A stretch of DNA of 57,765 bases from IMG/VR virus record IMGVR_UViG_3300047481_002095, positions 1-57,765 of that record; one strand, given 5' to 3'. Of this stretch, positions 4,672 to 51,699 are shown piece after piece. Each line of letters opens with the position of its first letter. Position 1 is the stretch's first letter. A program made the position numbers and the translations under genes. Origin of the DNA: a virus. Under the pieces are notes generated by a model. That model did no database searches. It was given only the letters and a program-made list of their open reading frames with translations, and was not told the origin of the DNA.

Positions 4672-5007
4672 ATGCCTTTTTACGAATTTTGTTGCAAGAA
4701 ATGTGATACAGTATATGATGAACTTTGTTCTCATGATCCATCAGGCAAATACAAGGATGTATCTTGCCCCAAATGCAAAAGCAAATCAAAGAAGAAATTG
4801 ATGTCTGCTTGCAAATATCAATTCTCAAATCCAGAAGGAACAGACCGCTGGAATAGTGAATCAAGCGGTCATGACTATAGGTTTAATCATAACTTGCCAA
4901 AAGTTCTGTCTGAAAGACAAAAGGCAGAAGAAGCAGGAAAGAACCCAAATCCTTACAATAATATCAATGATTTGAGTAGTGACGATTCTTGGGGCGAAGT
5001 GAAGTAG
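4672..5007 (+). CDS. FmdB-type zinc-ribbon protein
   Basis: 111 residues. It begins MPFYEFCCKKC and continues to CPKC about 20 residues later, the paired C-x-x-C zinc ribbon with 'P-x-Y-E-x-x-C' that defines the FmdB regulatory-protein family. The C-terminal half is hydrophilic and probably disordered. GAGGAATAA gives a good Shine-Dalgarno. Such zinc ribbons are common in large phages; the binding partner is unknown. Confidence 0.75.
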   Translation: MPFYEFCCKKCDTVYDELCSHDPSGKYKDVSCPKCKSKSKKKLMSACKYQFSNPEGTDRWNSESSGHDYRFNHNLPKVLSERQKAEEAGKNPNPYNNINDLSSDDSWGEVK

Positions 5008-5072: not shown

Positions 5073-5495
5073 ATGATGCGTTTTCATGAATGGCTGCGAC
5101 TCAGAGAAGGAGCAGTCACCTACAATTATGACCGAGTAGCATTCGCCCGATTGCCTTGGGACTGGCAAGCGATGCGGCGTTTGAAGATTGTCCAGCCAAT
5201 GTTCTACTTCCCAAAGAATACTTGGGTGAACGGTCAACCTCCGCAGGAGGAGGACTGGCAGTACGCCCTCATCACCAAGCAAAATTTGGACAACACGCCG
5301 TCAGATGAATTGTCTGCGACGAACCCGCATACTGGCAATCCACCAGACGAAGCTCACTTTCGTCAATACCTGACAAATCCGCAGGCATGGTATGACGACA
5401 AGATAGATCAGGTCTACAACAGCATTAAGATGGTCGGCAAAAGACCTGAAGACTTCGGCGGCAAGGACATTCGGCAATATTCTCAGAATTCCTGA
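5073..5495 (+). CDS. Protein with capsid-targeting-like leader, GC-richer than its surroundings
   Basis: 140 residues. The N-terminus MMRFHEWLRLREG fits the window's leader (F-x-E-W-L) and is followed at once by L-R-E, a good prohead-protease site. The body is Trp/Tyr/Pro-rich with no family recognised. Codon use (many GCG, CGG, CCG and GGC) is unlike the AT-rich neighbours and like the adjoining TnpB gene, so the whole block may have arrived together, perhaps from a related phage. Two start codons are adjacent (5073, 5076), with no strong Shine-Dalgarno for either. Confidence 0.65.
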   Translation: MMRFHEWLRLREGAVTYNYDRVAFARLPWDWQAMRRLKIVQPMFYFPKNTWVNGQPPQEEDWQYALITKQNLDNTPSDELSATNPHTGNPPDEAHFRQYLTNPQAWYDDKIDQVYNSIKMVGKRPEDFGGKDIRQYSQNS

Positions 5496-5510: not shown

Positions 5511-5535
5511 GCCATACTAACTAATGCTGTATGGC
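5511..5535 (+). repeat. Left-end hairpin of the TnpB element
   Basis: GCCATAC / GTATGGC, 7 bp with an 11-nt loop. Subterminal hairpins of this kind are recognised by TnpA in the IS200/IS605 family. Here it also covers the tnpB start codon. Confidence 0.5.
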
Positions 5536-6742
5536 GAAGGAGCATAAACCAAACCTGTATTCGTACCGCTTTCGGCTCTACCCGAACAAAGAACAGCGTA
5601 TCTTGCTGTCCAAACACTTCGGGGCGATCCGTTTTGTGTACAACCACTTCCTCGCCAGCCGCAAGGACAAGTATCTAGCCAGCAAGAAGTCCAGCAACTA
5701 CTACGGCGATTGCAAACTCTTGACCGAGTTGAAGAAAAAGCACCTCTGGATGAAAGAGGTATACTCGCAGTCGTTGCAGTTTAGTCTCAAGTGCTTGGAC
5801 GCCGCCTACAACAATTTCTTTGCAGGACGAGGTAAGTTCCCTGTCTTCAAGAAGAAGCAAGGTCATCAGTCCTTCCGAATACCGCAGAATGTCAAAATTG
5901 GTGACAACCATCTGTATATCCCGAAGTTCTTGGAAGGGATCAAGATGGTCAAGCATCGTGAAGTCGAAGGCACAATCAAGTTTGCCACGATCAGCAGGAA
6001 CAAGGTTGGGCAGTATCATGTCAGCATCACCGTCGAGCGAGACATGCCTATGCTGCTACCAGTTGACGCTGAGATTGGTGTGGACTTAGGCATCAAGACG
6101 CTGGCGACTTGCAGCGACGGGAAGGTATATGAGAACATCAAGCCATACCGCCAGTTGAAACGCAAACTCAAGATGGCACAAAGGCGGTTAAGTAGGAAGA
6201 AGAAAGGTAGCAAGAACCAAGAGCGAGCCAGAAGGAAGTTAGCCAAGATACATCTGAAGGTGAAGAACATCAGGACTGACCATCTGCACAAGACGACAAC
6301 CAAGATCATCCGTGAAAACCAAACGGTCTATTTGGAGTCGTTGAATGTATTGGGCATGATGAAGAACCATTGTCTCGCAGGAGCGATTGCCGATGCCTCG
6401 TTCTATGAGATACGCAGGCAGTTGGAGTACAAGGCGGGTTGGTATGGGCGAACGGTCAAGTATCTGGATCGTTGGTTCCCGTCGAGCAAAACTTGTTCTG
6501 AGTGTGGCTTCATCAAGCAGGACTTGAAGTTGAAGGATCGGGAGTGGAATTGCCCTCGCTGCGGGACACATCATGACCGTGATCTGAACGCAGCGAGGAT
6601 GATCTTGAAGCAAGGTAAGATAGAAGGAAAACTACCGTTGGAACGACGGGAAGTAAAGCGTGTGGACTTAGAGGAAATCCGACTGAACTATCAGTCGGCT
6701 AAGGTTGAGACACGAAGCCACTCCCCTTTAGGGGGGCGGTAG
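5531..6742 (+). CDS. tnpB: TnpB, RNA-guided RuvC nuclease of IS605 family
   Basis: 403 residues, full length for the family. Visible in order: an N-terminal YSYRFRLYPNKEQ wedge strand, a helical region, RuvC-I EIGVDLGIKTLAT (catalytic Asp), RuvC-II TVYLESLNV (catalytic Glu), a zinc ribbon CSECG...CPRCG, and RuvC-III HHDRDLNAARM (catalytic Asp). All three acidic residues are present, so the enzyme should be active. TnpB proteins use an RNA made from the 3' end of their own gene to cut DNA next to a short motif, which helps keep the element in place. Base composition differs from the neighbouring phage genes. Confidence 0.93.
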   Translation: MAKEHKPNLYSYRFRLYPNKEQRILLSKHFGAIRFVYNHFLASRKDKYLASKKSSNYYGDCKLLTELKKKHLWMKEVYSQSLQFSLKCLDAAYNNFFAGRGKFPVFKKKQGHQSFRIPQNVKIGDNHLYIPKFLEGIKMVKHREVEGTIKFATISRNKVGQYHVSITVERDMPMLLPVDAEIGVDLGIKTLATCSDGKVYENIKPYRQLKRKLKMAQRRLSRKKKGSKNQERARRKLAKIHLKVKNIRTDHLHKTTTKIIRENQTVYLESLNVLGMMKNHCLAGAIADASFYEIRRQLEYKAGWYGRTVKYLDRWFPSSKTCSECGFIKQDLKLKDREWNCPRCGTHHDRDLNAARMILKQGKIEGKLPLERREVKRVDLEEIRLNYQSAKVETRSHSPLGGR

Positions 6743-6971: not shown

Positions 6972-9047
6972 ATGAGCAAACTCCAAAAAGTAATTTCAAA
7001 CTTCAATCGTCAACAATTTCGTGCAATCAATAAAGAGATGTCTTTTTCTGAATACATTGAACTTTGTTATCAAAATCCCAAGCTCATTCGCAACTCATGG
7101 CAAACCATCTATGACATGATCATGGAAAAGGGAAGCTACACAATTGAAGAGTATCGAAAAACATATGTAAATTACAAGTTTTTTGATGATCCTGAATGCC
7201 CAATTGTTGGCCTTACTCCTATGAAGGACTCTCTTGTCAAGTTCATCAAGGGTGCTGCTGGTGGTTATGGCACGGAAAGGAGAATTCTTCTTCTTCATGG
7301 GCCAGTAGGATCATCAAAGTCAACAATTCTCAGGCTTTTCAAGAGAAGTCTTGAAAAGTACAGCAGAAGCGATAGCGGAGCTTGGTATAGCTTTAAGTGG
7401 GTCAACCTTCCAACAGGAGCAGATGGCGTTTATAACAATCCAGAATGTGAATGCCCCATGCACGAACAACCACTTAAACTTCTTCCTATTGATGTTCGCT
7501 CACAAGTAGTGGCAGAACTCAATAAAATTCATGAGGAGCAAGCTTCTCCCGAACAAAGAAGTGATATTTATACTCTCAAGTGCAATGATGAACTTGACCC
7601 TCTTTGCAACTTATTTATGAATGAACTTCTCAAGAAGTATGATGGAGACCTTCAAAAGGTTCTTGAAAATCATATCAGGGTTGTAAGAAAGATTTATTCA
7701 GAAGCTGATCGTTGCGGAATCGCAACATTCCAGCCAAAGGATGAAAAGAATCAAGATTCCACAGAACTTACGGGAGATATCAATTTCCGTAATATTGGAA
7801 ACTTCGGGTCTGACAGCGATCCTCGTTCATTCTCATTCGATGGTGAGTTCTGCGCTGGAAATCGTGGAATTATTGAATTTATTGAAGCTCTTAAACTTGA
7901 TACTGCATTTCTTTATGATTTGCTTGGAGCAAGCCAAGAACAGAGCATCAAGCCCAAGAAATTTGCACAAGTCAGCATTGATGAAGCAATTTTTTCGCAC
8001 ACCAATGACCCAGAATTTCAAAAGCTGAAAAGCAATCAATATATGGAAGCATTCAGGGATCGCACAACTAAAATTGATGTTCCATATACGCTCAAGTGGA
8101 GCGAGGAACTCAGGATTCTAGAGAAGGATTATGGCCCCGGCAAGGTTCGCCAGCATATCGCTCCACACACACTTGAGATTGCAGCTTTGTGGAGTATCCT
8201 AACTCGTCTTGCCGATGATAAGGATGGAAAGATCAACCTTGTTGAAAAGGCTGAACTTTATGATGGCAAACTTCTCGCCGGATGGACTGAAGACTCAGTC
8301 AAGGAACTCAAGGACAAGTATCCAGAAGAAGGCATGAATGGTGGTGTTTCTGTTCGATATCTTCAGGACAAGATTTCCAACTGTCTTGCCAACAATCATG
8401 ACTATGTAAATATGTTCATGGTTCTTAATGAATTGCGTGATGGACTTGATCATTGCAGTCTTCTGACCAATAAGGAGCAAGTAGGTCGATATATTACTTG
8501 CATTGACCTTTCAGTCAAGAAGTTGACTGAAATTCTCAAGGCAGAAGTTCAGAAGGCCTTGGTTGGAGACAAGGAAGCAATCAAGCGTCTTTGCTCCAAT
8601 TATATTGACAATGTCATGGCCTATATCAATAAATCCAAGATTAAAGACCCAATCACAGGTCAAGATCGCAAGCCTGATGAAAGGCTTATGCGTCAAATCG
8701 AGGAAAAGATTCAGATTCCAGATACTGGATGCGATGATTTCCGTAGACAAATCGCAGCTTTCATTGGCCACCTCGCCCATGAAGGCAAGACTTTCACATG
8801 GGACAGCAATCCCAAGCTTCGCAAGGCACTTGAGGCCAAGCTTTTCGAGGATGTGAAGGACACAATCAAGTTGAGCGCACTCAACATGAGCGGAGCAACT
8901 GTTGTTGACAAGGACTTGCAGGAAAAGATTGATGCTGTCAAGACACGCCTTGTCAAGGACTTCGGTTACAATGAAAGAAGTGCCACAGATGTTCTAGACT
9001 TTGTTGGTGGCATATTCAGTCGTGGAGACCTTGCCGAAGACGAGTAA
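6972..9047 (+). CDS. prkA: PrkA/YeaG-family serine protein kinase
   Basis: 691 residues from ATG 6972 (GGGGGC 6 nt upstream); an upstream TTG start would add 8 residues and is less likely. The N-terminal half matches the PrkA AAA domain: SFSEYIELC, then a Walker A of the family's unusual form GPVGSSKST at about residues 107-115. The C-terminal part is the kinase-like region. E. coli YeaG is 644 aa. In bacteria PrkA acts with YeaH under nitrogen starvation and in sporulating bacilli. Here it heads a row that also contains YeaH (9308) and SpoVR (11054), the same three partners. How a phage uses this module is not known to me. Confidence 0.92.
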   Translation: MSKLQKVISNFNRQQFRAINKEMSFSEYIELCYQNPKLIRNSWQTIYDMIMEKGSYTIEEYRKTYVNYKFFDDPECPIVGLTPMKDSLVKFIKGAAGGYGTERRILLLHGPVGSSKSTILRLFKRSLEKYSRSDSGAWYSFKWVNLPTGADGVYNNPECECPMHEQPLKLLPIDVRSQVVAELNKIHEEQASPEQRSDIYTLKCNDELDPLCNLFMNELLKKYDGDLQKVLENHIRVVRKIYSEADRCGIATFQPKDEKNQDSTELTGDINFRNIGNFGSDSDPRSFSFDGEFCAGNRGIIEFIEALKLDTAFLYDLLGASQEQSIKPKKFAQVSIDEAIFSHTNDPEFQKLKSNQYMEAFRDRTTKIDVPYTLKWSEELRILEKDYGPGKVRQHIAPHTLEIAALWSILTRLADDKDGKINLVEKAELYDGKLLAGWTEDSVKELKDKYPEEGMNGGVSVRYLQDKISNCLANNHDYVNMFMVLNELRDGLDHCSLLTNKEQVGRYITCIDLSVKKLTEILKAEVQKALVGDKEAIKRLCSNYIDNVMAYINKSKIKDPITGQDRKPDERLMRQIEEKIQIPDTGCDDFRRQIAAFIGHLAHEGKTFTWDSNPKLRKALEAKLFEDVKDTIKLSALNMSGATVVDKDLQEKIDAVKTRLVKDFGYNERSATDVLDFVGGIFSRGDLAEDE

Positions 9048-9077
9048 GGTACTCTTAATTTTGAGCGGAGGACAGTC

Positions 9078-9293
9078 ATGCAGAATGTATGGTTGCAATC
9101 AGCACAAGCAAAGAAGCTTATGCAGGAAATCGATACAATTGCTATGGACATTTGGTCTCAGGACGGGACTCTTGGAGACTTGTTCTCCGCTCTTAATGAT
9201 GACCACACAGACCTTTTATTTTCTATGAAAATAAAGGAATTTTCAATAGACCCTACTGACAATTCATGTTCTATCACTCTTAATCCATCCTGA
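9078..9293 (+). CDS. Small protein between prkA and yeaH
   Basis: 71 residues, preceded by GCGGAGGAC (good Shine-Dalgarno). It is acidic, with MQEIDTIAMDIWSQDGTLGD near the start. No family recognised. Its place between the kinase and YeaH suggests a helper or regulator of that module, by position only. Confidence 0.7.
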   Translation: MQNVWLQSAQAKKLMQEIDTIAMDIWSQDGTLGDLFSALNDDHTDLLFSMKIKEFSIDPTDNSCSITLNPS

Positions 9294-9307
9294 TAATTGG
9301 TGAAACT

Positions 9308-10525
9308 ATGCCTCGTCGTGTACATGAAGATTGGCAACATTTCCGTGATGTTGTTTCGGGCAGAATCAGAAAGGCCCTGAAAAAGTTCATCAAGAGCGGA
9401 CAAATTGTCAAAAATCGTGGAAAGAACGGCAAGATTTCCATAACTATTCCCAAGATTGATATTCCTCACATTGTTTATGGAAACAATGGAGAGGGAGTTG
9501 GAAGAGGAAAAGGCAAGGAAGGAGAAGTTATTGGAAAAGACCCTCAACCGGGAGATGGAAGCGGGAATGGTGCTGGACAAGGAGAGTCAGAGGGTATTGT
9601 TATCAATTTAGATTTGGAAGATGTTCTCAAGTTCATGCAAGATGAACTTCAGCTTCCAAACCTCAAGAAAAAGCCAAATGAAATTTATGATGAAGTTAAA
9701 ATCAAGTACAACAATATCAGCCTCATAGGCCCTGAATCTCTTAGACACAATAGGAGAACTCTCAGGCAAACCATGAAGCGTCAGGCAGCAGAGGGTACTC
9801 TAGGGAAATTAACTCATGTTGCTGGTGTCAAAGACCCCGTAAGGATTTTACAGCCAATCAATGAAGATAAGAGATACAGACAATATAATGAAATAAAAAT
9901 TCCAAGTAGTAACGCCCTTATAATTTTTGCCCGTGATGGCTCTGGTTCCATGGATCAGGCAAAGTGCGAAATTGTTAGTGATATGGCTTGGTGGATAGAT
10001 GTTTGGATTCGTCGTTTCTATGATCGTGTTGATCGTTTGTATGTTTGGCACGATAGTGAGGCCATGGAAGTTGATGAGGCCAAGTTTTATAAATATAGGT
10101 TTGGAGGAGGAACAACTTGTTCATCCGCTCTCAAGTTTATAACCAAGCAGTTTGAAAACAGGTATCCACCAGAAAAGTGGAACATCTATGTTTTTTACTT
10201 CACAGATGGCGAAAATTGGGGAGATGATAACCAAATTTTTATTGATACATTATCAAAAGAATTTGGAGCAAACATAGTCAATTTTACAGGAATCACTCAA
10301 ATACTAGCATCTTCATATTCAGATTCTGTCAAGTATCATGTTGATGAGGCAATCAAATCAGGAAAACTTGATAAGGATTGTGTGAGAACAGTTGCAGTAG
10401 GAGGAAGCGCAGATGGAAAGCCAATGTGGTCTGCTCCTTCTTTGAGCGAGGAAAATAGAAATGAACAAATCATAGAGGCAATACAGCAACTATTAGGCAA
10501 TCCAAGTAAGTTGTCACGGGAGTAA
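9308..10525 (+). CDS. yeaH: YeaH/YhbH-family protein (DUF444) with VWA-like domain
   Basis: 405 residues (E. coli YeaH 427). The start RRVHEDWQHFRDVV...IRK, the Gly-rich GRGKGKEGEVIG linker and the later FARDGSGSM (a D-x-S-x-S metal-site motif of von Willebrand A folds) are hallmarks of this family. FGGGTTCSSAL lies near the middle of the VWA part. YeaH is the usual partner of PrkA/YeaG and the two are co-transcribed in bacteria, as here. Exact biochemistry is unknown. Confidence 0.9.
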   Translation: MPRRVHEDWQHFRDVVSGRIRKALKKFIKSGQIVKNRGKNGKISITIPKIDIPHIVYGNNGEGVGRGKGKEGEVIGKDPQPGDGSGNGAGQGESEGIVINLDLEDVLKFMQDELQLPNLKKKPNEIYDEVKIKYNNISLIGPESLRHNRRTLRQTMKRQAAEGTLGKLTHVAGVKDPVRILQPINEDKRYRQYNEIKIPSSNALIIFARDGSGSMDQAKCEIVSDMAWWIDVWIRRFYDRVDRLYVWHDSEAMEVDEAKFYKYRFGGGTTCSSALKFITKQFENRYPPEKWNIYVFYFTDGENWGDDNQIFIDTLSKEFGANIVNFTGITQILASSYSDSVKYHVDEAIKSGKLDKDCVRTVAVGGSADGKPMWSAPSLSEENRNEQIIEAIQQLLGNPSKLSRE

Positions 10526-10527
10526 CA

Positions 10528-11052
10528 TTGCATTTTGTAGACATAAAATCTTACCCAGATAATTCAGTTCTAGAGAAACATAAGGAACTGTTGAATGAAC
10601 TTGAGTTTATATTTAATTCCATAGATGCCAAAGAACTTTTTATAAAACAATGCAAGGAAAAGAACAGGCTTGACAAGTTTTTATTTTGTCCAAAGTCTTG
10701 CAACAAATTGTGTAAAAAAATGCTTCGTGAAAAAAATTGGAAATCATATAAGCATAAATTCAAATACAAATCTGGAAATTTTAAACATGGAAGCTATGAA
10801 GTTGATTTTTTGAAAAATAGACTTGCTGTAGAGTTACAATTTGGTAAATATGCATTTATGCCAGATAATGTAATGAAGTTTGAAATATTTCACAAACACT
10901 TGAAACTTATTGATGTTGGCATTTTGATTGTTCCTTCCAAACACTTACAATTCAATATGAGTTCTGGCCCCGGTTGTTTTCAGCAAATAATTCAAAGACT
11001 TGATGATCTCAATTATCAAAATCCTTTGATTGTTATAGGTCTTGGAGGTTGA
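10528..11052 (+). CDS. BglII-like restriction endonuclease-fold protein
   Basis: 174 residues with a TTG start; GGGAG lies 5 nt upstream and no ATG fits. The core YEVDFLKNRLAVELQFGKYA is the PD-(D/E)xK active-site strand pair of the BglII family (E..D.....AVE.QFGK), followed by VGILIVPSKHL. In bacteria such enzymes cut specific DNA sites. There is no obvious partner methylase next to it, although three methylases lie elsewhere in the window. Its location inside the PrkA-YeaH-SpoVR row is unusual. Possible roles: host DNA degradation, exclusion of rival phages, or homing. Confidence 0.72.
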   Translation: MHFVDIKSYPDNSVLEKHKELLNELEFIFNSIDAKELFIKQCKEKNRLDKFLFCPKSCNKLCKKMLREKNWKSYKHKFKYKSGNFKHGSYEVDFLKNRLAVELQFGKYAFMPDNVMKFEIFHKHLKLIDVGILIVPSKHLQFNMSSGPGCFQQIIQRLDDLNYQNPLIVIGLGG

Positions 11053-11053
11053 A

Positions 11054-14000
11054 ATGTCTTCCAAATTCTTTCACGGATCAAGCCTACTTGTTGGTGACAA
11101 TACTGTTCCCGGCGTTCAACTATCAAAAGAACTTAAAGAATATATTCCAAAGATTCTTCAGGCCTGTCGCAATTGGGGTCTTGATTTCTATCCTACTGTA
11201 GTCCAATTGCTCAATTATGACGAAATAAGCGAAGTAGCAGCTTATGGAGGATTTCCTGTTCGTTTTCCCCATTGGTCTTTTGGAATGGAATATGAAGAGC
11301 TACAGCGTGGATATGAGTTCGGTGGACATAAGATATATGAAATGGTAGTGAATTGCCTAAATTTTTCCGTAAATGTAAGCAGCGCAAGGGGTTACATCAA
11401 AGTTTCAGATGTAAAAATTGGTGATATTTTATTCAGTAAAAATGGTGGAAGAAGGGTAGTTGCTGTTAAAAAACAAGCAAAAAGCAAAGTTGTGAAAATT
11501 GATGCTTTTGGATATTTTCAGGACACGATATGTACGCCAAACCATAAGTGGCAAGTATTAAGAGGTTATAAACCAGAGTGGGTTGAAGCTAAAGATTTAG
11601 TTCAAGGAGATATTTTGATTGCTGGCGGAAAATATGATAATTTTCTTGGAAGCAGCCCACAAATTATATGGTCAAAACAAAAAGTTTATGAATCCACTTT
11701 GCCAAATGTAAGGTGGAAATTGTTTGATATTAATCCGCCAAAACATATGACTGTTGAATTAGCAGAGCTATTAGGCATTTGTGCTGGGGATGGAAGTTCT
11801 GGTGTGAGTGGATCAGAAAATATGATTGCCATTGCTGTTGGCAAAAAGAACAAGCAATATCAGCTTCATATTCAAAACATTTTTCACAAGGTCTTTAATA
11901 AAGAAGCTGCTATCTATGAAAAAGATTCAGGTGATACTGTCGTTTTGTGTTCCAAGTATGCAGTTGACTATTTTAATGAAATTGGAATGAAAAAAAATGT
12001 TACATTTGAATCTAAGAAAGTTCCCTCAATAATTTGGGAGTCTTCTAATGAATATAAAGCCGCTTTTCTTAGAGGAATTTTTGACACAGATGGTCATGTT
12101 AAGACCAGTTTGCAGATGTGCAGTAAGAGTTTTGAATTGATTAAAGATGTACAGTTGCTTTTGTTAGAGATTGGAATATTCAGTAAGGTTGTTCATGTAA
12201 ACAATAAACACAATAATATTTATGTTCTTTATATTTTAGGTAGAAGTAATCAACTTGCCTTTTCAAAATATGTAAATTTTTCAACAGAATATAAGCGTGA
12301 AGCTTTATTTAATTTGGTAAATTCTGGATATGCGATTGCCCACGGGAATAAACTTCCCAATGTACAAAAAGAAATTTTGAGAAGACTTGAAGAATTGCCT
12401 AATCAAAGAAAACTTCCTGCATGGATTAAGAGATGGAAATGGTTATCTAACAAAAAGGATGTTGGTTGTAACACTTTGTGGAGTTTTGTTTCTAGGCTCA
12501 TGAGTGCTGGATACGATGGATTTGAAGATATATTTGAAACATTGCAAAGTCCTATGTATGTGGTTGAAAAATGTGCCGAATATGGAGAGGAAGAAACAAT
12601 CGACATAGCATTGGATCATGACGAACATGATTTCTTGGCAAATGGATTGGTTTCTCATAACACCAACCCATGTTACATCTATAATCTTGCCTCAAATACA
12701 TTGGCAGATCACTTGACAGTAGTGGCTCATGCAACAGGACACAATGACTTTTTCAAAAACAACATTCATTTTAGTGCCACAGATACCAATATGCTGAACA
12801 AGATGGCGAATCATTCTGCTAGGATTCGCAACTATATGAGCAGATGGGGCAAGGAGCGTGTTACAGAATTTCTTGATCATGTTATGAGACTTGAAACCCT
12901 GATAGATGGATCAGAGGCTTGGACTGAAAAAGTTGTAAAAGACAGAAATATTCGTGATGAAAGAAAATACAATAAGCCACAAATGCTGAATGTTGACAGA
13001 AAAAGGCTATATATGGAGCCTTTCATCAATACTTCTTCTTATCGTAAAAAGAAAAATGAGGAGATACATGATAGAGACATTGCTGATGAAATCGGATTCT
13101 TCAAAGAGCCAACTAAGAACATTCTTGGTTTCATTCGTGACAATGCTCCATTGAAGCCATGGCAATCTGATATTGTTTCCATGCTTTATGAAGAGGCAAT
13201 CTATTTCTTCCCACAAAGACAAACTAAGGTCGCCAACGAAGGCTGGGCCTGTGGAAAAAGGGATACTCTTGTTTGTAGTGATTTGGGCATTTTGACCTTA
13301 GGAGAAATAGTCGAAAATAGAATGGCAGTAACCATTTACGATGGAGAACAAGAAAGAAAAGTTACGAATTGGTTTACTTTTGAAAATCGAGATGTGTATC
13401 GCATAGAAACTCGTCGTGGATATGTTTTTGAGGGTTCTAATAATCATCGCATCATGGGCCATGATGATTGGATTCGCATGGACGCAATGTCAGTTGGACA
13501 GTCATTGAAATTGTCTTATTCTGATATTTGGTCAAATGAATTGCAAGAAATTAATTATGAATTACCAGAAAAAAGAATTGAACTTGATGAGATTGCCGAA
13601 ATGGCATCTGTTACAAAATATCAAGTAAGCTATAGGAAATATCATTACAAAGGTGAAGAAAAAAATGATGTTTTAGGAAATCTGATTCAAGAATATGATA
13701 ATCAAAAAACTACTTTTATGCGAAACAAGAGGAACAAGATTAGTGTTCCTGATTATATGACTGAAGATTTTGCTTCATTTGTCGGCTACATGATTGGCGA
13801 TGGACATATTTCCCTAGTGAAAAGAACTATGGGTTTGACATCTGGGGACAAATCACAAATTGATCATTATGCTACTTTGCTTAAAGATTTATTTGGATTA
13901 GAATGTAAGATAAGATGGGATGGATCATCGAAAAATGGTAGGTATAGGGCTTCGGTTAGTTCTAAAGATTTGGAACTACTTCTTATCCATCTTGGCATGA

Positions 14001-15163
14001 AAACAGGAGTTTGTGCCAGAAGTAAAAATATACCAGAAATTATATTGAAATCGCCAAAGAATGTTGTTACGGCATTCATCAGGTCTTATTTTGACTGCGA
14101 TGGTTATGCTGGAAATGCGGGAGTGATACTCTCCACATCGAGCGAGAGTATGTCTCGACAAATCCAGAATGTGCTTTTGAATTTCAAGATTCTCTCAACA
14201 AGGAGAAAGCAAAAAGATTCATGTTGGCATATTCGGATTACTGGCTCAGAAGCGGTTAAATTTGAAGAACAAATTGGATTTGGTCTTCAAAGAAAACAAG
14301 ATAAATTAAGAAAATATGTTTCTGATCACAAATGGTTTCTGGAAAAGAATCTTGAAGATGAGATTGTTTCTGTTGAAAAAACTGGCACAGACACAGTTTA
14401 TGATATCACAGTTGAAACAAGTCATCGATATTCAGCTTGCGGATTTATAAATCATAACAGCACAGTTGACTCTGTCATCATGGCAGAACAAGGCTTCATT
14501 GGACTTGGTCAAAAGTCTGAGGATTGTGGCATTGTAGAGTATGCTGATCACAAGATGGGAGTTCTTGGTGGCAAGTATAGCATGAATCCTTACAAGCTGG
14601 GATTTTACTTGCTTGCCGATATTCGTGAGAGGTGGGACAAGGGCAGATTTGGAACCGAATATGATGAATGCACAGATATGCACAAGAAAGAGAATTGGGA
14701 CACGGGTGCCATGTTGGGCAAGGAGAAAATTTTCGAGGTTAGGAAGTATTATGATGATCTAACCATGATACATGAATTCTTTACAGAAGAGTTTTGTCGT
14801 AAACAAGAATATTTTCATTGGAAACATTATCCAAATGGCGAATACAGAATCGACACAAGAGACTACAAGACTATTAAAAAGAATTTGATGCAAAGACATC
14901 TTAATGGAGGACTGCCTGATATCAGGCTCATGGAGCCTAATTATCTTGGAAGAGGAATAATGCTATTGCAGCATTATCATGATGGTAGGCCTTTGTACGA
15001 GTCTTATCTAGAAGATGTTTTGTCTTCAATTCGATTCCTTTGGAATAATGATGTTGTTTTGGTTTCAAAGGATGAAAATAGTAAGGAAAAAATTTATTGG
15101 CAAAAAGCAAATTATTTTGAAGTAATGGACAGGGAAAAACTCAACAAACAAGCGAATGTTTGA
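11054..15163 (+). CDS. spoVR: SpoVR/YcgB-family protein interrupted by two inteins
   Basis: The frame codes for 1369 residues from ATG 11054 (GGAGGT upstream). Removing the two inteins (436 and 403 aa) leaves a 530-residue SpoVR (E. coli YcgB is 510). Extein segments SSLLVGDNTVPG, FPHWSFGMEYEEL, TNPCYIYNLASN, HATGHNDFF, QTKVANEGWA and KHYPNGEYRIDTRDY are typical of the family. SpoVR is needed for cortex formation in Bacillus, and YcgB is co-regulated with YeaG/YeaH in enterobacteria. Both inteins sit at highly conserved motifs, as usual for mobile inteins. The start follows the BglII-like gene by 1 nt. Confidence 0.92.
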   Translation: MSSKFFHGSSLLVGDNTVPGVQLSKELKEYIPKILQACRNWGLDFYPTVVQLLNYDEISEVAAYGGFPVRFPHWSFGMEYEELQRGYEFGGHKIYEMVVNCLNFSVNVSSARGYIKVSDVKIGDILFSKNGGRRVVAVKKQAKSKVVKIDAFGYFQDTICTPNHKWQVLRGYKPEWVEAKDLVQGDILIAGGKYDNFLGSSPQIIWSKQKVYESTLPNVRWKLFDINPPKHMTVELAELLGICAGDGSSGVSGSENMIAIAVGKKNKQYQLHIQNIFHKVFNKEAAIYEKDSGDTVVLCSKYAVDYFNEIGMKKNVTFESKKVPSIIWESSNEYKAAFLRGIFDTDGHVKTSLQMCSKSFELIKDVQLLLLEIGIFSKVVHVNNKHNNIYVLYILGRSNQLAFSKYVNFSTEYKREALFNLVNSGYAIAHGNKLPNVQKEILRRLEELPNQRKLPAWIKRWKWLSNKKDVGCNTLWSFVSRLMSAGYDGFEDIFETLQSPMYVVEKCAEYGEEETIDIALDHDEHDFLANGLVSHNTNPCYIYNLASNTLADHLTVVAHATGHNDFFKNNIHFSATDTNMLNKMANHSARIRNYMSRWGKERVTEFLDHVMRLETLIDGSEAWTEKVVKDRNIRDERKYNKPQMLNVDRKRLYMEPFINTSSYRKKKNEEIHDRDIADEIGFFKEPTKNILGFIRDNAPLKPWQSDIVSMLYEEAIYFFPQRQTKVANEGWACGKRDTLVCSDLGILTLGEIVENRMAVTIYDGEQERKVTNWFTFENRDVYRIETRRGYVFEGSNNHRIMGHDDWIRMDAMSVGQSLKLSYSDIWSNELQEINYELPEKRIELDEIAEMASVTKYQVSYRKYHYKGEEKNDVLGNLIQEYDNQKTTFMRNKRNKISVPDYMTEDFASFVGYMIGDGHISLVKRTMGLTSGDKSQIDHYATLLKDLFGLECKIRWDGSSKNGRYRASVSSKDLELLLIHLGMKTGVCARSKNIPEIILKSPKNVVTAFIRSYFDCDGYAGNAGVILSTSSESMSRQIQNVLLNFKILSTRRKQKDSCWHIRITGSEAVKFEEQIGFGLQRKQDKLRKYVSDHKWFLEKNLEDEIVSVEKTGTDTVYDITVETSHRYSACGFINHNSTVDSVIMAEQGFIGLGQKSEDCGIVEYADHKMGVLGGKYSMNPYKLGFYLLADIRERWDKGRFGTEYDECTDMHKKENWDTGAMLGKEKIFEVRKYYDDLTMIHEFFTEEFCRKQEYFHWKHYPNGEYRIDTRDYKTIKKNLMQRHLNGGLPDIRLMEPNYLGRGIMLLQHYHDGRPLYESYLEDVLSSIRFLWNNDVVLVSKDENSKEKIYWQKANYFEVMDREKLNKQANV
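11354..12661 (+). mobile_element. SpoVR intein 1 (LAGLIDADG type)
   Basis: 436 residues in frame. It starts with Cys (CLNFSV) after KIYEMVVN and ends VSHN before Thr of TNPCY. Splicing block motifs: Cys1, CTPNHKW (block B), and a C-terminal His-Asn with +1 Thr. Endonuclease motifs: LLGICAGDGS and LRGIFDTDGHV. This is a complete class 1 intein; the homing endonuclease appears intact because both acidic motifs are present. Confidence 0.93.
13250..14458 (+). mobile_element. SpoVR intein 2 (LAGLIDADG type)
   Basis: 403 residues in frame. It starts CGKRDTLV after ANEGWA and ends INHN before Ser (+1). Splicing motifs: Cys1, GSNNHRIM (block B), and VYDITVETSHRY (block F). Endonuclease motifs: VGYMIGDGHI and IRSYFDCDGY. 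The sequence is not a close copy of intein 1. Confidence 0.93.
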
Positions 15164-15807
15164 TGTCAACATACATTAAAAACAATCAGATACATGGTCG
15201 TTTTAATTCCGAAAGGAATTCAAAATTTGAACATATTGGAAGAAATTCCAATATCGAATTTTGGGAAAGCAAAAAGGGAATAGTCAAGATAAATGATGTA
15301 AATGAAAAAGGGGAACTTGTTACAAATTGTTCTGACTTGATTGTTGAGTTCAAGTCGAAAATGCTTCTTATAGAGGCGGCAACAAAAAGAGCAGACTTGT
15401 TTAAGTATATTGAAGAAGGCGTTGATGTTGAAACAAGAAAGTTAAAGTATTGCAGAAAAGATCAAAAAGGTTTCGTTGGTATGTGTGATTATTATCTTGA
15501 TGAAAATAATGTTGCACATTCAGGAAATGAAATGCTTTTGATTCCCATGGAATGCCTACAATATGCACAAAACAGTTGCGGTAATAATTTCAAAGGGCAA
15601 GGTAGCGTGAAGTCTTCTATTGGTTTTACAATGCCAGAACATGGTTGCCATAGAGTTAGAAAACAATGCAGGAATGGTTTCAGGCAAACAGGTAGCGTTG
15701 AAGACTTTTACAGAATACCACTTGGATATGTTGCTCACTACAGGAAAAATGAAAAAGGTAACTATAATTTAATTAGGAAGCCAATTTGGAGAATTGAAAA
15801 TGGATGA
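15163..15807 (+). CDS. Unknown protein, possible PD-(D/E)xK nuclease fold
   Basis: 214 residues; its ATG overlaps the SpoVR stop (TGATG). CSDLIVEFKSKMLLIEAA around residue 60-75 looks like the D-x(n)-E-x-K strand pair of PD-(D/E)xK nucleases, but the match is short. Later segments are Cys- and Arg-rich (HRVRKQCRNGFRQ). It belongs to the same transcription unit as SpoVR. Function uncertain. Confidence 0.65.
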   Translation: MSTYIKNNQIHGRFNSERNSKFEHIGRNSNIEFWESKKGIVKINDVNEKGELVTNCSDLIVEFKSKMLLIEAATKRADLFKYIEEGVDVETRKLKYCRKDQKGFVGMCDYYLDENNVAHSGNEMLLIPMECLQYAQNSCGNNFKGQGSVKSSIGFTMPEHGCHRVRKQCRNGFRQTGSVEDFYRIPLGYVAHYRKNEKGNYNLIRKPIWRIENG

Positions 15808-16015
15808 TACAAGTTTGTTGCTCACAGAGGAATTTCAAAACTTTTCGGCAAAAATCAAGACAATCTTTGAGGAAAAGAAAGCTAAGAAAGAACAGCTAAA
15901 GGCTTTGTATGACAAAGTTCAAGCTGAAATTAAGGCTTTAGATGCTAAAGCCAAAACAGCAGAAGAAGAATTCAACAAGTGGAAAGCATCACAAAAAGGC
16001 AAGCCACAAGATTGA
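15800..16015 (+). CDS. Short coiled-coil protein
   Basis: 71 residues from ATG 15800, overlapping the end of the previous gene. Most of the chain is one charged heptad-rich helix (KKEQLKALYDKVQAEIKAL). GGAG lies upstream inside the previous gene. It overlaps the next gene by TGATG, suggesting coupled translation with that membrane protein. Confidence 0.65.
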   Translation: MDDTSLLLTEEFQNFSAKIKTIFEEKKAKKEQLKALYDKVQAEIKALDAKAKTAEEEFNKWKASQKGKPQD

Positions 16016-16373: not shown

Positions 16374-16392
16374 TTTATATATGGGGATAACA

Positions 16393-19300
16393 ATGTCAGA
16401 TACCACTTTCAGGCCATACAAGTCAAAGTTGAATCCCAATGAACGAAAGATGCCCATGGTTGTTGACACCATGAACTGGTGTGACAATGCTTGCTCTGTG
16501 TTTTTCGACTTATTTGTGGGTCTTTATGGTGGTGTCAAGATAGGGGATGTGACTAACTTTTTGACAGAAAAGCAAGACACTACTACTGACGCTGACTTGC
16601 TTTGTGCCATCAACTGGTTTCGAGCTATGCCAGTCAGCAATCCCGATGCTGTTGTTGGTCCTGAGCAGTTGGTGGTTAGGTTTCGAGATTATTCTGGCCA
16701 CAATCCTAGCCCAATGGCGAGTATGTATCTGTCGGCACCTGTAAATCCAAGGTATACATGGGTGGATTGCCGGTTTTTATATCAACAGATGTGTCAGACA
16801 CTTGGTGCCAATCTTGATGTTGATATCTCCACTCTTGTTCAGACAGGTCTTTTGCCCATTCAAAAAGATACGCAGCTTAATGCCTACAGCTTCTGCTCTA
16901 ATGTTTTTGGAGAGGGCGTGAAAGAAGACCCATCTGCTAAGGTAACTTCATATACAGCAGCAGCAAATGCTCTGAGTGGTGCCACTAATCCAATCATCAC
17001 ATACGAGGATTATCGCCAAATATTGTCTAGTGCTATCACTAATCGTCCATCTCGTAAGGGGGCCAAAGACATTTTGGCTGCTGACCTCGACAGCACCAAG
17101 ACAGGAGTCTTACCGGGAAACTATGTGTCGCAAAGAATCGCAATGTATCAGGCAAGCGCAGCTTCCAAGGCAAGGGGAGTGGTGTTGCCAAATAGGCTTA
17201 GGGTTAAGGCATATTTGCAAAATTTGGTGGGACTGAATTATATCTGCACTACTTGGGCAGCCCCCATGCTCAGGGCAGTAGGAGATATCAAGAGCAAGAA
17301 TAGCAATAACTATCGGTTTGTGGGCGAGAGACTTGAAAGGCAACAGGAAATTGACAACCTTCTCGCAGTTTCAAATATTCGTTCTGCACAGGCTATTCTT
17401 CAACAGTTTCGAGCAAATGAATCCAATCAATTCTACATCAAAAAGAGGCATATTGGCAAGGGTTTGCCAAGTCTTTACGATATGTGGGATTTAATGGACG
17501 AGAAGGAAGGTATCGATAATTACATCCAGTCTCTAAAGGGTGACAAAACTGAAAGGCTACCTATTCGTGAACTATTGCAAATCATCTATCCTCATCGCAA
17601 AAGTGTGAGCGCAGAACTGTTTTTGTCAGCAGCGGAACTGACTGATGTTGAGGACAGGCAAAACAGGTGCATGGTTCATCCGACTGTCCGAGGCAGTTTG
17701 GTAATCAACTTTGGCAAGTCCAGCACAATATTCGGAGCAATTACTCCTCCAGACACCCTCATCAAATTTCGGGGAGAGATGGTTCCCGCTGGTCAGACTG
17801 GCATGATCTGGTTCACTATGCACTTGGTTGATGGTGGCAAATGGGTAAAGCACCACATTCCTTGCCATTCATCTCGATATTTTGAGGAAATTTACGCTTG
17901 GAAGAAAGACCTTCCAACTCTTCCATTTCCTCGCCGTTCCCTTTATGGATACGCTATTGGAAACAAGATTTCCGACACCCGCAAGATTGATTTAAGGAGG
18001 AAAAAAGCCTCCAAGCAATATCTTCGCACTCTCGAAAACATGACGCATAATGTCGAATTTGATCCAACCACTCAATTCATGGTGGACCAAGAACTGAATG
18101 TCACAATTACGGCAAGGGTCAAGAAAATACCTCCTGTTCGTGATGTGCCTGTTGGATCACGAATCATGGGTCTGAATAAGAATCAAACCATTCGTGATTG
18201 TTATTCCATTTGGGAAAGAGTGGAAGCCAACACAAGTGGGAGCTTTCAACATCCAGTAGTGCAAGATGTTTGGCTCAGGCTTGTAGCCGATGGTCATGTG
18301 ACTTCGACTGTCAATGGGCCTAATGGTCAAATTGATCAGATGAGTTATTCAGGCCCAGATGTCGCAAATTGTGGCAACTGGATGCAGGAAAGGTCGAATT
18401 TCATCACTAGCGTTGATGATGCTGACCAAAGCATCATGAAGCACTTCCTCTGGAATAATCGAGTCAAGCTCTACGCTTGGAACTGTGTGTACGCTGGCAC
18501 TTTGATGAAAGCCATCAGCAAGCAGATGACGACTGCCAATCGCAATTTATTCAGGAATGAGATTCTTTCATTCGTGGGAGGTCGATTTGGTTGCCGATTG
18601 GGCAGTTTGGCGCAAGTTTCCCTTGACCTTCTTCGTCGCATGAAGTCTGTTATTTCTTGCTATTTCAGCAGGAATAACGCATTTACAATTGAGGAAAGGT
18701 CTGCATTCGACAAAGAGCTTATGGAATTGTTTGAGTCTCTTGACAACAAGATGAACAACAAGAGAAAGGAAAAGGTCAATCGAACCCTTAGTTCTATTTT
18801 TCAGGTTGCCAAGCAGCACAATGTTGTGAGACTTGTGGTGACCAAGAATCTTCAGACTCCAGACGCAAATGTCAGGTCTGTGATGAATCAGAGGTCTGTT
18901 GACTGGTGTGCAAGGAAGATTGAGGAAAAGATCGTTGATTTAGGTAATGTGATTGGGATTTATGTGGACTTGGTTGAGGCTCTTGACCTGTCACATCTTG
19001 ATCCATTCATCTACATCGCCAAGGGTGATGTCGGCAAGGAGTGTCAGTTTGACGAGGTTGAGTCATCATCTCTTCTGCCTATCCACACTTCGATGTTTCG
19101 TGATTGGCATGGTTTGGTGAATAAGGGCAGAACAACTACTCCTATTTACCATTCAGCCTTGAGGTCATTTGCATCTCACTATGGACTTCGTTTTGATGAT
19201 CTTGCAAGGATCAAGGCAGCAGAACTTGCCAAGATGTTACCTGACCAAAAGGTTTTCATTCCTCACAGGGGAGGCAGATTCTTTATGTCCACTTATCCTG

Positions 19301-19416
19301 TCACCAGCACATCAAGGCCAGTCTCTTACGATGGAAGGCAGAGGTTTTTGAACAGCGGAGACATGGTTGCTCCTGTCAACACAATGCTTCGTGGTTTCCG
19401 ACGAGCTAGGTCTTGA
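16393..19416 (+). CDS. Putative Cas12/TnpB-like RuvC-fold protein with degenerate active site
   Basis: 1007 residues from ATG 16393 (GGGG 7 nt upstream; an ATG at 16381 lacks a site). Seen: an N-terminal helix ending CSVFFDLFVGLYGG; a beta-rich wedge-like stretch ending NVTITARVKKIPP; then SRIMGLNKNQT followed by YSIWERVE, which lines up with TnpB's EIGVDLGIKT; a long helical block; VVRLVVTKNLQ at about 811-821, in the place of RuvC-II; and SGDMVAPVNTMLRGF near the end, in the place of RuvC-III (D-x-x-A-x-x-N-x-x-x-R-G, Asp 990). At the first site Asp is Asn595 and at the second Glu appears to be Lys818, so DNA cutting is doubtful. There is no zinc ribbon. The order wedge, RuvC-I, helices, RuvC-II, RuvC-III at the C-terminus is that of type V effectors. 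No CRISPR array or other cas gene is visible. The family call is by eye. Confidence 0.5.
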   Translation: MSDTTFRPYKSKLNPNERKMPMVVDTMNWCDNACSVFFDLFVGLYGGVKIGDVTNFLTEKQDTTTDADLLCAINWFRAMPVSNPDAVVGPEQLVVRFRDYSGHNPSPMASMYLSAPVNPRYTWVDCRFLYQQMCQTLGANLDVDISTLVQTGLLPIQKDTQLNAYSFCSNVFGEGVKEDPSAKVTSYTAAANALSGATNPIITYEDYRQILSSAITNRPSRKGAKDILAADLDSTKTGVLPGNYVSQRIAMYQASAASKARGVVLPNRLRVKAYLQNLVGLNYICTTWAAPMLRAVGDIKSKNSNNYRFVGERLERQQEIDNLLAVSNIRSAQAILQQFRANESNQFYIKKRHIGKGLPSLYDMWDLMDEKEGIDNYIQSLKGDKTERLPIRELLQIIYPHRKSVSAELFLSAAELTDVEDRQNRCMVHPTVRGSLVINFGKSSTIFGAITPPDTLIKFRGEMVPAGQTGMIWFTMHLVDGGKWVKHHIPCHSSRYFEEIYAWKKDLPTLPFPRRSLYGYAIGNKISDTRKIDLRRKKASKQYLRTLENMTHNVEFDPTTQFMVDQELNVTITARVKKIPPVRDVPVGSRIMGLNKNQTIRDCYSIWERVEANTSGSFQHPVVQDVWLRLVADGHVTSTVNGPNGQIDQMSYSGPDVANCGNWMQERSNFITSVDDADQSIMKHFLWNNRVKLYAWNCVYAGTLMKAISKQMTTANRNLFRNEILSFVGGRFGCRLGSLAQVSLDLLRRMKSVISCYFSRNNAFTIEERSAFDKELMELFESLDNKMNNKRKEKVNRTLSSIFQVAKQHNVVRLVVTKNLQTPDANVRSVMNQRSVDWCARKIEEKIVDLGNVIGIYVDLVEALDLSHLDPFIYIAKGDVGKECQFDEVESSSLLPIHTSMFRDWHGLVNKGRTTTPIYHSALRSFASHYGLRFDDLARIKAAELAKMLPDQKVFIPHRGGRFFMSTYPVTSTSRPVSYDGRQRFLNSGDMVAPVNTMLRGFRRARS

Positions 19417-19487: not shown

Positions 19488-19892
19488 ATGGAACTTATCA
19501 CAACAACTTGCCAAAAAAAGTGTTTTGGTTTTGATTCTTATCATGGAAGTTGTTGTCGATTAGAAAATCGAGATTATATTATTGGGCCTATTCATGATCC
19601 TCATGAATTTCTTGATCGACTCAATAAGCACTATTCCCAAAATTTTAAGTATTCAGACATTTTTATTGAATATGAGGAGGGAAGTAAGTTGTTTCCAAAC
19701 AAATTTAATTGGCAAAAGGAAAGTGCTTATCCTGCTTTGAGAATTAATTTGACCACAAGTGATAATTCTTGCATATTTTACAACAACCAATTAAAGCTTT
19801 GTACTGTTTATTCTATCAGGCCAAGCATTTGCTCTTCTTTTCTTTGTGATTATTTGCGTGGAGAGCTTGAAAAGACAAAGTCTTTGTCATAA
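19488..19892 (+). CDS. YkgJ-like Cys-rich (zinc/iron-chelating) protein
   Basis: 134 residues from ATG 19488. The N-terminus has C-x-x-x-C and then GSCCRLE, and the C-terminal part has CIFY, LCTVYSIRPSIC and FLC. The Cys spacing with Y-x-x-RP-x-x-C is that of the YkgJ/UPF0153 putative metal-chelating family. Metal and role are unknown. The start is only 10 nt beyond the T-run of the terminator, so it needs its own promoter or read-through; GAGAGC is a weak Shine-Dalgarno. Confidence 0.7.
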   Translation: MELITTTCQKKCFGFDSYHGSCCRLENRDYIIGPIHDPHEFLDRLNKHYSQNFKYSDIFIEYEEGSKLFPNKFNWQKESAYPALRINLTTSDNSCIFYNNQLKLCTVYSIRPSICSSFLCDYLRGELEKTKSLS

Positions 19893-19915
19893 CATCAATT
19901 TTTTAGGAGAATCAA

Positions 19916-21330
19916 ATGGAAAAGAAAGGAGGCAAGCAAGTGGAGATTGTGGGCTACGAACATCTTCACTTGCACTAGCTAACACAGACTTTTCAACTCT
20001 TGATGGTTTTGGCCAAGTAGAAGAATATTGTGTTCGTGCCCCAAAAATAAATCAAAAGTTTCTTTGCATTTCTGACCATGGAATGATGGGTGCCATTCCA
20101 AGGCAAATCAAAGGTTGTGAAAAGATAAATGACAAGATGGGCAAAGATACTTTGTCTCCAATCTTTGCTTGTGAATTGTATTTAAATAGACTTCAAACAG
20201 AAATGACAGAAGAAGGAGAAGGCAAGAAAATATACTCAAGTCTGACAGAAGAAGAACAAAACGAATTTAAGGCAAGCAGTCACCTTCTTGCAATAGCAAC
20301 AAGTCAAGAAGGATATAAGAACCTAGTTCGTCTTTCGTCATGGGGTTGGACTAAGGGATTCTATAGAAGACCAAGAGTCAATTACGAACAACTGAAAAAG
20401 TACAAAGAAGGAATAATTTTCACATCCTGTTGCTATGCAAGCGAAATAGGAAAGGCTTTTGAAAGAGGAGGAGAAGACGAAGCTTTTAATATGGTTGAAA
20501 GATATATTGAAATGTTTGGCAAAGAACAATTTTACCTAGAAATTATGCTTCTCGACTTCAAAAAGCAAAAACCTTATGACGCATTCATTATCAAGGCTAA
20601 AGAAAAATATGGACTAAAGATTATACTGACAAATGATTGCCACTATTGCAACAAAGAAGATAGTCACTATCAAAGACTAATGTTGATGATTCAGACAAAC
20701 AGAACCATATCTGAGATTGAGAAGGCTCTTAAAGAAGATTCTGACCAAGATTTCTTTGAACTTCAGGATGCTAATCTTTGGATGAAATCTGAAGAAGAAT
20801 TAAATGAAAAGTGGTTGTCTGATTACAGCGATGTTATTCCTTACGAAATTTTTTGCGAGGCCAAGAGAACAACAGTTGAAATTTGTAATAAAGCCAAAGG
20901 TGTTCAGCTTGATAGAAGCCTCAAGTTGCCCATTATACCTGATGGTGACGAAAAGTTAAAAGAAGAGATAATTCTTGGCTTTCAAAGGCGTGGACTGCCT
21001 AAAACAAGAGAATACTTAGACAGAATAAAAGAGGAATATAGCCTTATTACGAGAAAGGGTTTTACTAGTTACTTTTTGATACAAAAAATGATGACAGATG
21101 AGGCTCGTAGGGTTTGTCGTGATCTTTTGGGATTTGGTGATGGTTCACAAGCAGTAGGGCCAGCAAGGGGATCAGCAGCAGCCTCTTTAATTTGCTATTG
21201 CCTAGGAATTACGAGTGTTGATCCTGTTAGAGAGGGATTGTTGTTCAGTCGATTTATGAGCGAGGCTAGAGGTGGAAGAACCTTGCAACTAGAATTTAAA
21301 AATATTGATCCATTACCTTCTGATGATTAA
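19916..21330 (+). CDS. dnaE: DNA polymerase III alpha, N-terminal part (PHP + partial palm), frameshifted
   Basis: The real start is ATG 19916 (TTAGGAGA before it), reading MEKKGGKQVEIVGYEHLHLH and then stop TAG at 19976. The rest of the protein continues in another frame from about 19980: TDFSTLDGFGQ, ISDHGMMG, TNDCHYC, YFLI and GPARGSAAASLICYCLGIT. Joined, HLHLH plus TDFSTLDG is the start of the DnaE PHP domain. A stretch of 8 nt (TAGCTAAC, 19976-19983) looks inserted. The coded part ends LLFSRFMSEARGG and then diverges before the catalytic Asp pair, which is supplied by the gene at 29623-32349. Whether the shift is programmed, mutational or an assembly error cannot be told. Confidence 0.8.
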
Positions 21331-24225: not shown

Positions 24226-24270
24226 ATTATGAATAATATCAGTCGATTTAGATTAAGGATTGGTGATAGC

Positions 24271-25116
24271 ATGAGAGGGAAAATGGTAGCATTTTCATGG
24301 TATGGAGGCAAAACATCGCACTTGAAGTGGTTGTTGCCGATGATTGACGCTACTCCTCACACTTCCTATGTGGAGTCATTTGGCGGGTCAGCGGCGGTTC
24401 TTTTGAACAAAAAACCGAGTCCTGTTGAAATTTACAACGACTTGTACAGTGATGTTGTAAATTTCTTCTCGGTATTGAGAACTAAACGGGAGGAACTGCT
24501 TCCATTATTGGAACTAACTCCGTATAGCCGTGAAGAGTTTGCGGACTCTTGTGAGAACGGCAAAACCGACGACGAGTTAGAATGTGCAAGGAAATTTTTC
24601 ATTCGTGCGAGACAAGTTCGTACTGGTCTTGCCACTACTGCTTCGGCTGGTCGGTGGGCTTATGTGACAAAAGATAGCCGTCGTGGGATGGCGTTGGTCG
24701 TATCTCGGTGGCTAAGTGCCATTGATGGGCTTGAAGACATTTGTGTACGGCTGAGGCAAGTCCAACTGGAAAACTTAGAGGCTGTTGATGTAATCAATCG
24801 TTATGACACAGACGACACGCTTCACTACATTGATCCGCCGTATTTGATGACAACAAGAAGTGGTGGAGTTGGGTATGCCCATGAGTTTAACGAAGAAAAG
24901 CACTTACAACTGCTATCTGTAGTTAAGTTTTTGAAAGGCAAAGTGATTTTGTCGGGTTATTCCAACGAAACATACGATGACACTCTTTCCGGTTGGCAGA
25001 GATATGAAGCAGATGCTAAATTTGCGGCTGCTACTAGGCAGGACGGTAAACCGGCTCTCAGACAGGAAGTTGTTTGGACGAATTACGACTTGAAAGGACT
25101 GCTGTGCTGCAAGTAG
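24271..25116 (+). CDS. dam: Dam-like N6-adenine DNA methyltransferase (D12 class)
   Basis: 281 residues from ATG 24271; ATG 24283 is also possible (AGAGGG just before it). FSWYGGKTSHLKWLLPMI is the SAM-binding start of the alpha class, YVESFGGSAAVLLNK its motif I, and YIDPPYL the DPPY catalytic motif. Family length is usual (about 270-280). Target is probably a short palindrome such as GATC, but this cannot be read from sequence. Codons are GC-richer than the neighbours', as in the 5073-6742 block, suggesting separate acquisition. It directly precedes the tmRNA gene. Confidence 0.9.
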   Translation: MRGKMVAFSWYGGKTSHLKWLLPMIDATPHTSYVESFGGSAAVLLNKKPSPVEIYNDLYSDVVNFFSVLRTKREELLPLLELTPYSREEFADSCENGKTDDELECARKFFIRARQVRTGLATTASAGRWAYVTKDSRRGMALVVSRWLSAIDGLEDICVRLRQVQLENLEAVDVINRYDTDDTLHYIDPPYLMTTRSGGVGYAHEFNEEKHLQLLSVVKFLKGKVILSGYSNETYDDTLSGWQRYEADAKFAAATRQDGKPALRQEVVWTNYDLKGLLCCK

Positions 25117-25917: not shown

Positions 25918-25919
25918 AA

Positions 25920-51662: not shown

Positions 51663-51699
51663 TTTCTCAAAAATGTAATTGTGTTTAGTACATAGTTGT

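Follow-up and report, generated by a model that had tools for sequence, protein, structure and literature searches.

A prkA-yeaH-spoVR gene trio kept near the replicase in a lineage of very large phages, with two predicted inteins in spoVR

We analysed a 57,765-nucleotide stretch of viral DNA (IMG/VR record IMGVR_UViG_3300047481_002095, positions 1 to 57,765; hereafter the window), in which the genes for PrkA (YeaG), YeaH (DUF444) and SpoVR (YcgB) follow each other on one strand. Our data suggest that the lineage of very large phages to which it belongs took up the bacterial prkA-yeaH-spoVR operon once, gene order included, and has kept it a short way upstream of the replicase, where it is almost a core locus. 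There, PrkA and YeaH would act on SpoVR, a putative metalloprotein, and the trio would serve as a brake on host metabolism during infection. We hold this reading with moderate confidence.

The complete and ordered trio that the initial annotation had read from the letters was confirmed by Pfam matches, which place PrkA, YeaH, a BglII-family nuclease and SpoVR on the plus strand. The prkA gene (6972..9047, +; 691 amino acids, aa) encodes an AAA+ domain and a PrkA C-terminal domain (PF08298, PF06798, E ~2e-73); its Walker A motif, GPVGSSKST, is retained in an alignment with distant phage PrkAs, and the solved structure 9xip is a homologue (E 1e-209). YeaH (9308..10525, +; PF04285, E 6e-63) is of the vWA type, and its metal ion-dependent adhesion site (MIDAS) motif DxSxS (D210, S212, S214, T269, D300) is invariant among divergent phage homologues. 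The spoVR gene is an open reading frame (ORF) of 1,373 aa (11054..15163, +; PF04293, E 2.6e-93; SpoVR_C PF24755, E 2.3e-7; PF14890, PF14528), which is this long because two inteins, described below, are inserted in it. Ratios of nonsynonymous to synonymous substitution (dN/dS) against locus L006 were 0.033 for PrkA, 0.05 for YeaH and 0.065 for the SpoVR extein, in a comparison where PrkA is 93% identical and synonymous sites are fairly saturated (dS 1.3-1.5). Judged by these ratios, the trio parts are under purifying selection.

The phage nature of the window is indicated by the viral record, by a match to a virion protein in PHROG (50199-51662; E 3e-97) and by its nearest relative in an annotated phage collection, the uncultured 595-kb phage LR756511 (PrkA 67% identical), whose copy of the locus has neither nuclease nor intein. 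A bacterial chromosome as the source of the contig was also considered and was not borne out. A search for the terminase family PF03237 among relatives gave a match in 4 of 12 records.

A scan of IMG/VR for PrkA returned 134 contigs, the best 80 of which were used and made up, together with the window and LR756511, a set of 82 viral loci. PrkA, YeaH and SpoVR stand in one and the same order in 78 of these, and the remaining four contigs end before SpoVR. A DnaE-like gene (replicase) downstream of the trio was matched in 56 of the 82. Additionally, an independent search starting from the DnaE-like gene yielded 61 loci, and the trio was present in most of those having enough upstream sequence. 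The neighbourhood survey thus bore out the trio as a unit and did not bear out the nuclease as part of it. Furthermore, three loci (L204, L206 and L207) lack the trio and retain genes that surround it elsewhere: the zinc-ribbon-like gene of the left edge (4672..5007, + in the window; matches in 99 of the searched loci), a match to the small gene that follows prkA in the window, and the short coiled-coil-like ORF of the right edge (15794..16015, +; matches in 88 of the searched loci). PrkA was sought in these three contigs and not found; the records are partial, so absence from the rest of these genomes cannot be claimed. This sublineage appears to have lost the three genes at once, while their neighbours were kept.

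In a PrkA tree, 56 viral representatives form one clade beside bacterial PrkA (98 in the Shimodaira-Hasegawa-like approximate likelihood ratio test). PrkA shares 52-55% identity with proteins from Calditrichota, Bdellovibrionota, Myxococcota, Planctomycetota and Chloroflexota, and the same gene order was found in 53 of the 80 bacterial loci fetched. Thermus phages form another clade, and phages of Mahaphage size group with enterobacterial YeaG. On the question of single or repeated gain, one viral clade therefore holds for this lineage and not for phages overall, for which the tree points to at least two captures, probably three. This count is provisional, because the tree was quick and has long branches and its bacteria were picked by similarity to the window. 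The yeaG/yeaH genes of Enterobacter phage LAU1 were dropped as a phage case; they lie at the record end beside tail genes and were read as prophage-flanking host DNA.

In the mechanism that we propose, PrkA would be an AAA+ motor and YeaH a vWA/MIDAS adaptor, and the two would remodel, load or regulate SpoVR, a metalloprotein with a gluzincin-like fold. The output during infection would be a host-side metabolic brake, as for YeaG/YeaH of E. coli. Cooperating YeaG and YeaH quiesce metabolism in nitrogen-starved E. coli (PMC10954441), and survival of sustained nitrogen starvation requires yeaG (PMC4664914). For PrkA of B. anthracis, an AAA+ protein, both kinase and protease activities were negligible in vitro (PMC13001217).

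The predicted fold of SpoVR comes from AlphaFold2 models of a viral and a bacterial SpoVR (predicted local distance difference test 84 and 81.5), built from different alignments. For both, VIA-align ranked gluzincin metallopeptidases and their homologues at the top, with Z scores for the viral/bacterial model of 11.6/11.5 (3o0y), 9.8/10.0 (LTA4H), 9.4/8.9 (M32) and 7.6/6.8 (ACE). In the list for the bacterial model, unrelated chains appeared only at Z of 3.7 or below, with one exception at Z 5, the pterin-dependent iron enzyme SnPolE. According to these models, SpoVR is predicted to resemble gluzincin metallopeptidases. In this regard, H121, H125 and E291 (L006 numbering; HxxxH and NEG-A motifs) are invariant in 83 of 83 aligned SpoVR rows, and the motif pattern predicts them to be metal ligands. 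Position 122 is V in bacteria, A in phages and Glu in none of the 83 rows, so that there is no HExxH; without the catalytic Glu of the peptidases, SpoVR is therefore probably not an ordinary protease. Nor was any peptidase family listed when SpoVR was searched against Pfam with E values of up to 10. At position 298, the 45 bacterial rows all have H and the 38 phage rows all have D; since the phage rows share one ancestor, this counts as one change per site and not as 38. It could be, and we put this forward as a somewhat doubtful extension, that SpoVR, serviced by the PrkA/YeaH AAA+-vWA machine, is a gluzincin metalloenzyme but no peptidase, and that this phage lineage re-tuned its metal site (V122A, H298D) for a different substrate or cell state. 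The gluzincin-like prediction, the invariant ligands and the missing catalytic Glu together give a testable metal-site hypothesis for SpoVR.

Several observations weigh against the proposed machine. According to the aligner, helical models without kinship can reach Z scores of up to about 13. A Foldseek search of the PDB with SpoVR gave no match at E <= 0.001, and when SpoVR was compared with M1 peptidase profiles only the NEGWA/NEGFA motif aligned, with 3% probability. A title cited in PMC13001217 describes PrkA of B. subtilis as an ATP-dependent protease. In addition, at least one sublineage does without the trio, which is therefore dispensable.

The initial annotation had further described a five-gene set, in which a small gene and a nuclease belonged with the trio, and this did not hold up. 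The gaps between the genes vary across the viral loci; many are empty, and others contain cargo such as a BglII-like nuclease (window and L012), a PvuII-like nuclease (L015/L016), DUF559, methyltransferase and glycosyltransferase-like genes. The small ORF between PrkA and YeaH (9078..9293, +; 71 aa, without family) had a tblastn match in 25 of the 82 viral loci and, as it is kept in the trio-less phages, is probably not a dedicated part of the trio. The nuclease (10528..11052, +; 174 aa; PF09195 Endonuc-BglII, E 2.9e-18) fills this slot in only two phages, the window and L012 (with which L064, at 99.97%, is one phage), and other cargo fills the same gaps in relatives. A relative of it was found in one of 50 relatives' records searched whole, that of L012; the 595-kb record of LR756511 contains no homologue. 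On this evidence from gene content, the nuclease is accessory cargo in a variable operon gap, independent of the trio.

The nuclease matches BstYI (1sdo, E 4e-16) and BglII (1d2i, E 5e-8), its active site D-x8-E-x-Q is intact in an alignment with other phage homologues, and its dN/dS against L012 is 0.12. It may be an orphan restriction enzyme that cuts RGATCY and destroys host or competitor DNA, the phage being immune through purging of its own sites; we regard this as a real possibility, although on balance not the probable one. RGATCY does not occur in the window, where 50.8 ± 6.8 sites were expected from shuffles and 23.7 from a Markov model, and all four forms are missing, the non-palindromic AGATCC/GGATCT included, as BstYI specificity would predict. 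The site is also absent from L012 (0 vs 17.0 expected) and is present in the sister L006 (14 vs 27.7), L007 (80 vs 97) and L070 (19 vs 72). Moreover, no cognate methyltransferase adjoins the nuclease, whose neighbours are yeaH and spoVR. However, 12 of 51 loci with no nuclease gene in view (stretches of 12-42 kb, including a 42-kb part of LR756511) are at zero as well, so that the association between nuclease and avoidance is suggestive only and the absence of RGATCY is weakened as a proof of nuclease specificity. By a hand calculation, two carriers would both be at zero by chance in about 1 in 15 draws, and the RGATCY test was post hoc. A search for distant nuclease relatives gave eight loci (33-40% identity), among which RGATCY is not uniformly absent. 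In addition, the window encodes a D12-class N6-adenine methyltransferase (24229-25116), 13 kb from the nuclease, and a second DNA methyltransferase (25914-26789), which could protect phage DNA. ACGT (0 vs 64.8 ± 7.9 in shuffles) and CGCG (0 vs 22.4 in a Markov model) are also missing from the window, therefore avoidance has other causes as well, for example host restriction-modification; other palindromes (GGCC, CCGG, GCGC) are missing from several relatives.

Turning back to the trio and its proposed effect on host metabolism, the initial annotation had suggested a starvation-persistence switch; in this reading, the trio would keep an infected, slow-growing host quiescent in a pseudolysogenic state. 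Such a role is plausible by analogy, being compatible with the E. coli YeaG/YeaH brake and the need for yeaG in sustained nitrogen starvation. Phage_integrase (PF00589) had no match in the records of 14 relatives, which also fits, and a survey of an oxygen-minimum zone reported spoVR as the sporulation-related viral gene of highest abundance and read it as a matter of host persistence (PMC8940887). Nevertheless, we find it doubtful, since a metabolic effect within the lytic cycle accounts for the same facts and neither the nuclease nor the small gene belongs to the switch.

A function in virion assembly or maturation, where the AAA+/vWA pair and a partner of metallopeptidase fold would fold or process structural proteins, seems unlikely. 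Iyer et al. 2021 propose such a role, with proteolytic processing, for a MoxR/vWA-metallopeptidase pair and cite an archaeal virus precedent (PMC7824862); the corresponding genes of Thermus phage Lalka8 lie between portal/head genes and TerL and those of phiYS40 near TerL, and the predicted fold of SpoVR is gluzincin-like. In the present lineage, however, the trio adjoins the replicase and not structural genes, SpoVR has no catalytic Glu, and PrkA shares its 52-55% identity with same-order bacterial operons, where no virion exists. Moreover, Pfam names the ATPase AAA_PrkA, and the general Pfam scan, which was not aimed at MoxR, listed no MoxR match. The likely output of the trio would remain a brake on host metabolism, with these two readings as its main functional rivals.

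The two inteins within the SpoVR ORF, both complete, had no place in the initial annotation. Intein 1 (11354..12661, +; 436 aa) follows the N of IYEMVVN and shows C1, TPNH, HN followed by T and two LAGLIDADG motifs (GDG, TDG), and intein 2 (13250..14458, +; 403 aa) lies between NEGWA and S with C1, SNNH, HN followed by S and two LAGLIDADG motifs. The exteins align over their full length with the intein-free SpoVR of L006, and the spliced product is predicted to have about 530 aa. Both insertion sites are also occupied in relatives, most of which are without one or both inteins. Intein 1 was present in 16 fetched viral loci and intein 2 in 17, with at least 11 and at least 8 changes of occupancy, respectively, on the extein tree, and the splicing residues are retained in all 16 and 17 viral copies, save block B of L082, which the search pattern did not match. 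Over 20 kb, loci L024 and L026 share 99.96-99.99% identity, and their occupancy differs exactly once, at intein 1; L029, 95-97% identical, has neither intein. Thus, with near-identical phages differing at the same site, occupancy follows the pattern of mobile elements, as far as sequence comparison goes, and these near-isogenic phages provide an example of an intein recently gained or lost. Furthermore, dS between the window and L007 is 0.165 for intein 2 and 1.74 for PrkA, an approximately ten-fold difference that fits recent horizontal movement of intein 2. Intein-like matches were also found in SpoVR genes of Chloroflexota bacteria (L101, L105, L112 and L116), and L112 (Oscillochloris) carries a 400-aa intein, 43% identical, at the intein-2 site, which is therefore not phage-only. 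Both inteins would thus be homing elements that occupy conserved parts of SpoVR and are spliced out of the protein. That they are regulatory, with conditional splicing that activates SpoVR under particular redox or starvation conditions, is highly improbable. In favour of it, the two insertion points fall within conserved motifs of SpoVR, that of intein 2 at the predicted metal site; against it, one or both inteins are missing from most relatives, occupancy varies among near-identical phages and the horizontal spread of intein 2 fits selfish homing.

Other features of the window concern the surroundings of the locus and the rest of the phage genome. An ORF at 5073-5495 and a TnpB/IS605 OrfB gene (5531..6742, +; PF01385, PF07282; in 4 of the 82 viral loci) separate the left zinc-ribbon-like gene from prkA. 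Downstream of spoVR, a 215-aa ORF (15160..15807, +) had a tblastn match in 5 of the 82 viral loci and no family in Pfam and PHROG searches, and a 1,011-aa ORF (16381-19416), also without a Pfam or PHROG family, has a relative only in L007 among these loci. Sequence of the DNA polymerase III alpha type is found in two ORFs about 8 kb apart (19846-21330 and 29623-32349), and the two methyltransferase genes lie in the interval; in LR756511 there is a single ORF of 1,179 aa. A 657-aa ORF (51679-53652) with PhoH matches at its C-terminal part and terminase, primase and helicase-loader family matches in its middle is possibly a PhoH gene with a further intein. The phage also encodes DnaJ (45244-46308).

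Among bacteria, PrkA, YeaH and SpoVR are widespread and have ties to starvation and sporulation, and what they do together biochemically has yet to be solved; a phage lineage with the trio near the replicase and a trio-less sublineage form a natural comparison and a test bed for the trio machine. Literature searches over abstracts and passages, with few subscription journals covered, found no paper that brings together prkA, yeaH, spoVR and phage, and none on SpoVR together with an intein. The phage-borne trio as such is not new, as Thermus phages carry separate versions and the trio was therefore already in the databases. Phages phiYS40, phiLo and MN1 have PrkA, DUF444-type and SpoVR genes together, like the present lineage, but in the order DUF444-SpoVR-PrkA, with PrkA about 30% identical and placed separately in the tree, and in some cases near TerL/portal; in Lalka8, vWA and PrkA-like genes flank a SpoVR homologue. 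In Ralstonia phage RsoM2USA, SpoVR (ORF28) and PrkA (ORF30) genes have been reported (PMC8504454). The inteins resemble known LAGLIDADG inteins in all splicing and endonuclease motifs and in their patchy presence at fixed sites. The nuclease shares the family PF09195 and the active-site spacing D-x8-E-x-Q with BglII/BstYI enzymes, and differs from those of Burkholderia phages BcepIL02 and DC1, which a methyltransferase adjoins. The MoxR pair of group 2.2 jumbo phages (PMC7824862) is similar in its AAA+ motor, vWA partner, metallopeptidase-type domain and occurrence in large phages; there the ATPase is MoxR and the metallopeptidase is fused to the vWA protein, whereas here they are PrkA and a SpoVR without the catalytic Glu. 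Lastly, the bacterial prkA-yeaH(yhbH)-spoVR(ycgB) operon has the same three families in the order of those 53 bacterial loci, and the phage version differs from it in its own PrkA clade, in A122 and D298 of SpoVR where all 45 bacterial rows have V and H, and, in the window, in two SpoVR inteins and variable cargo genes inside the operon.

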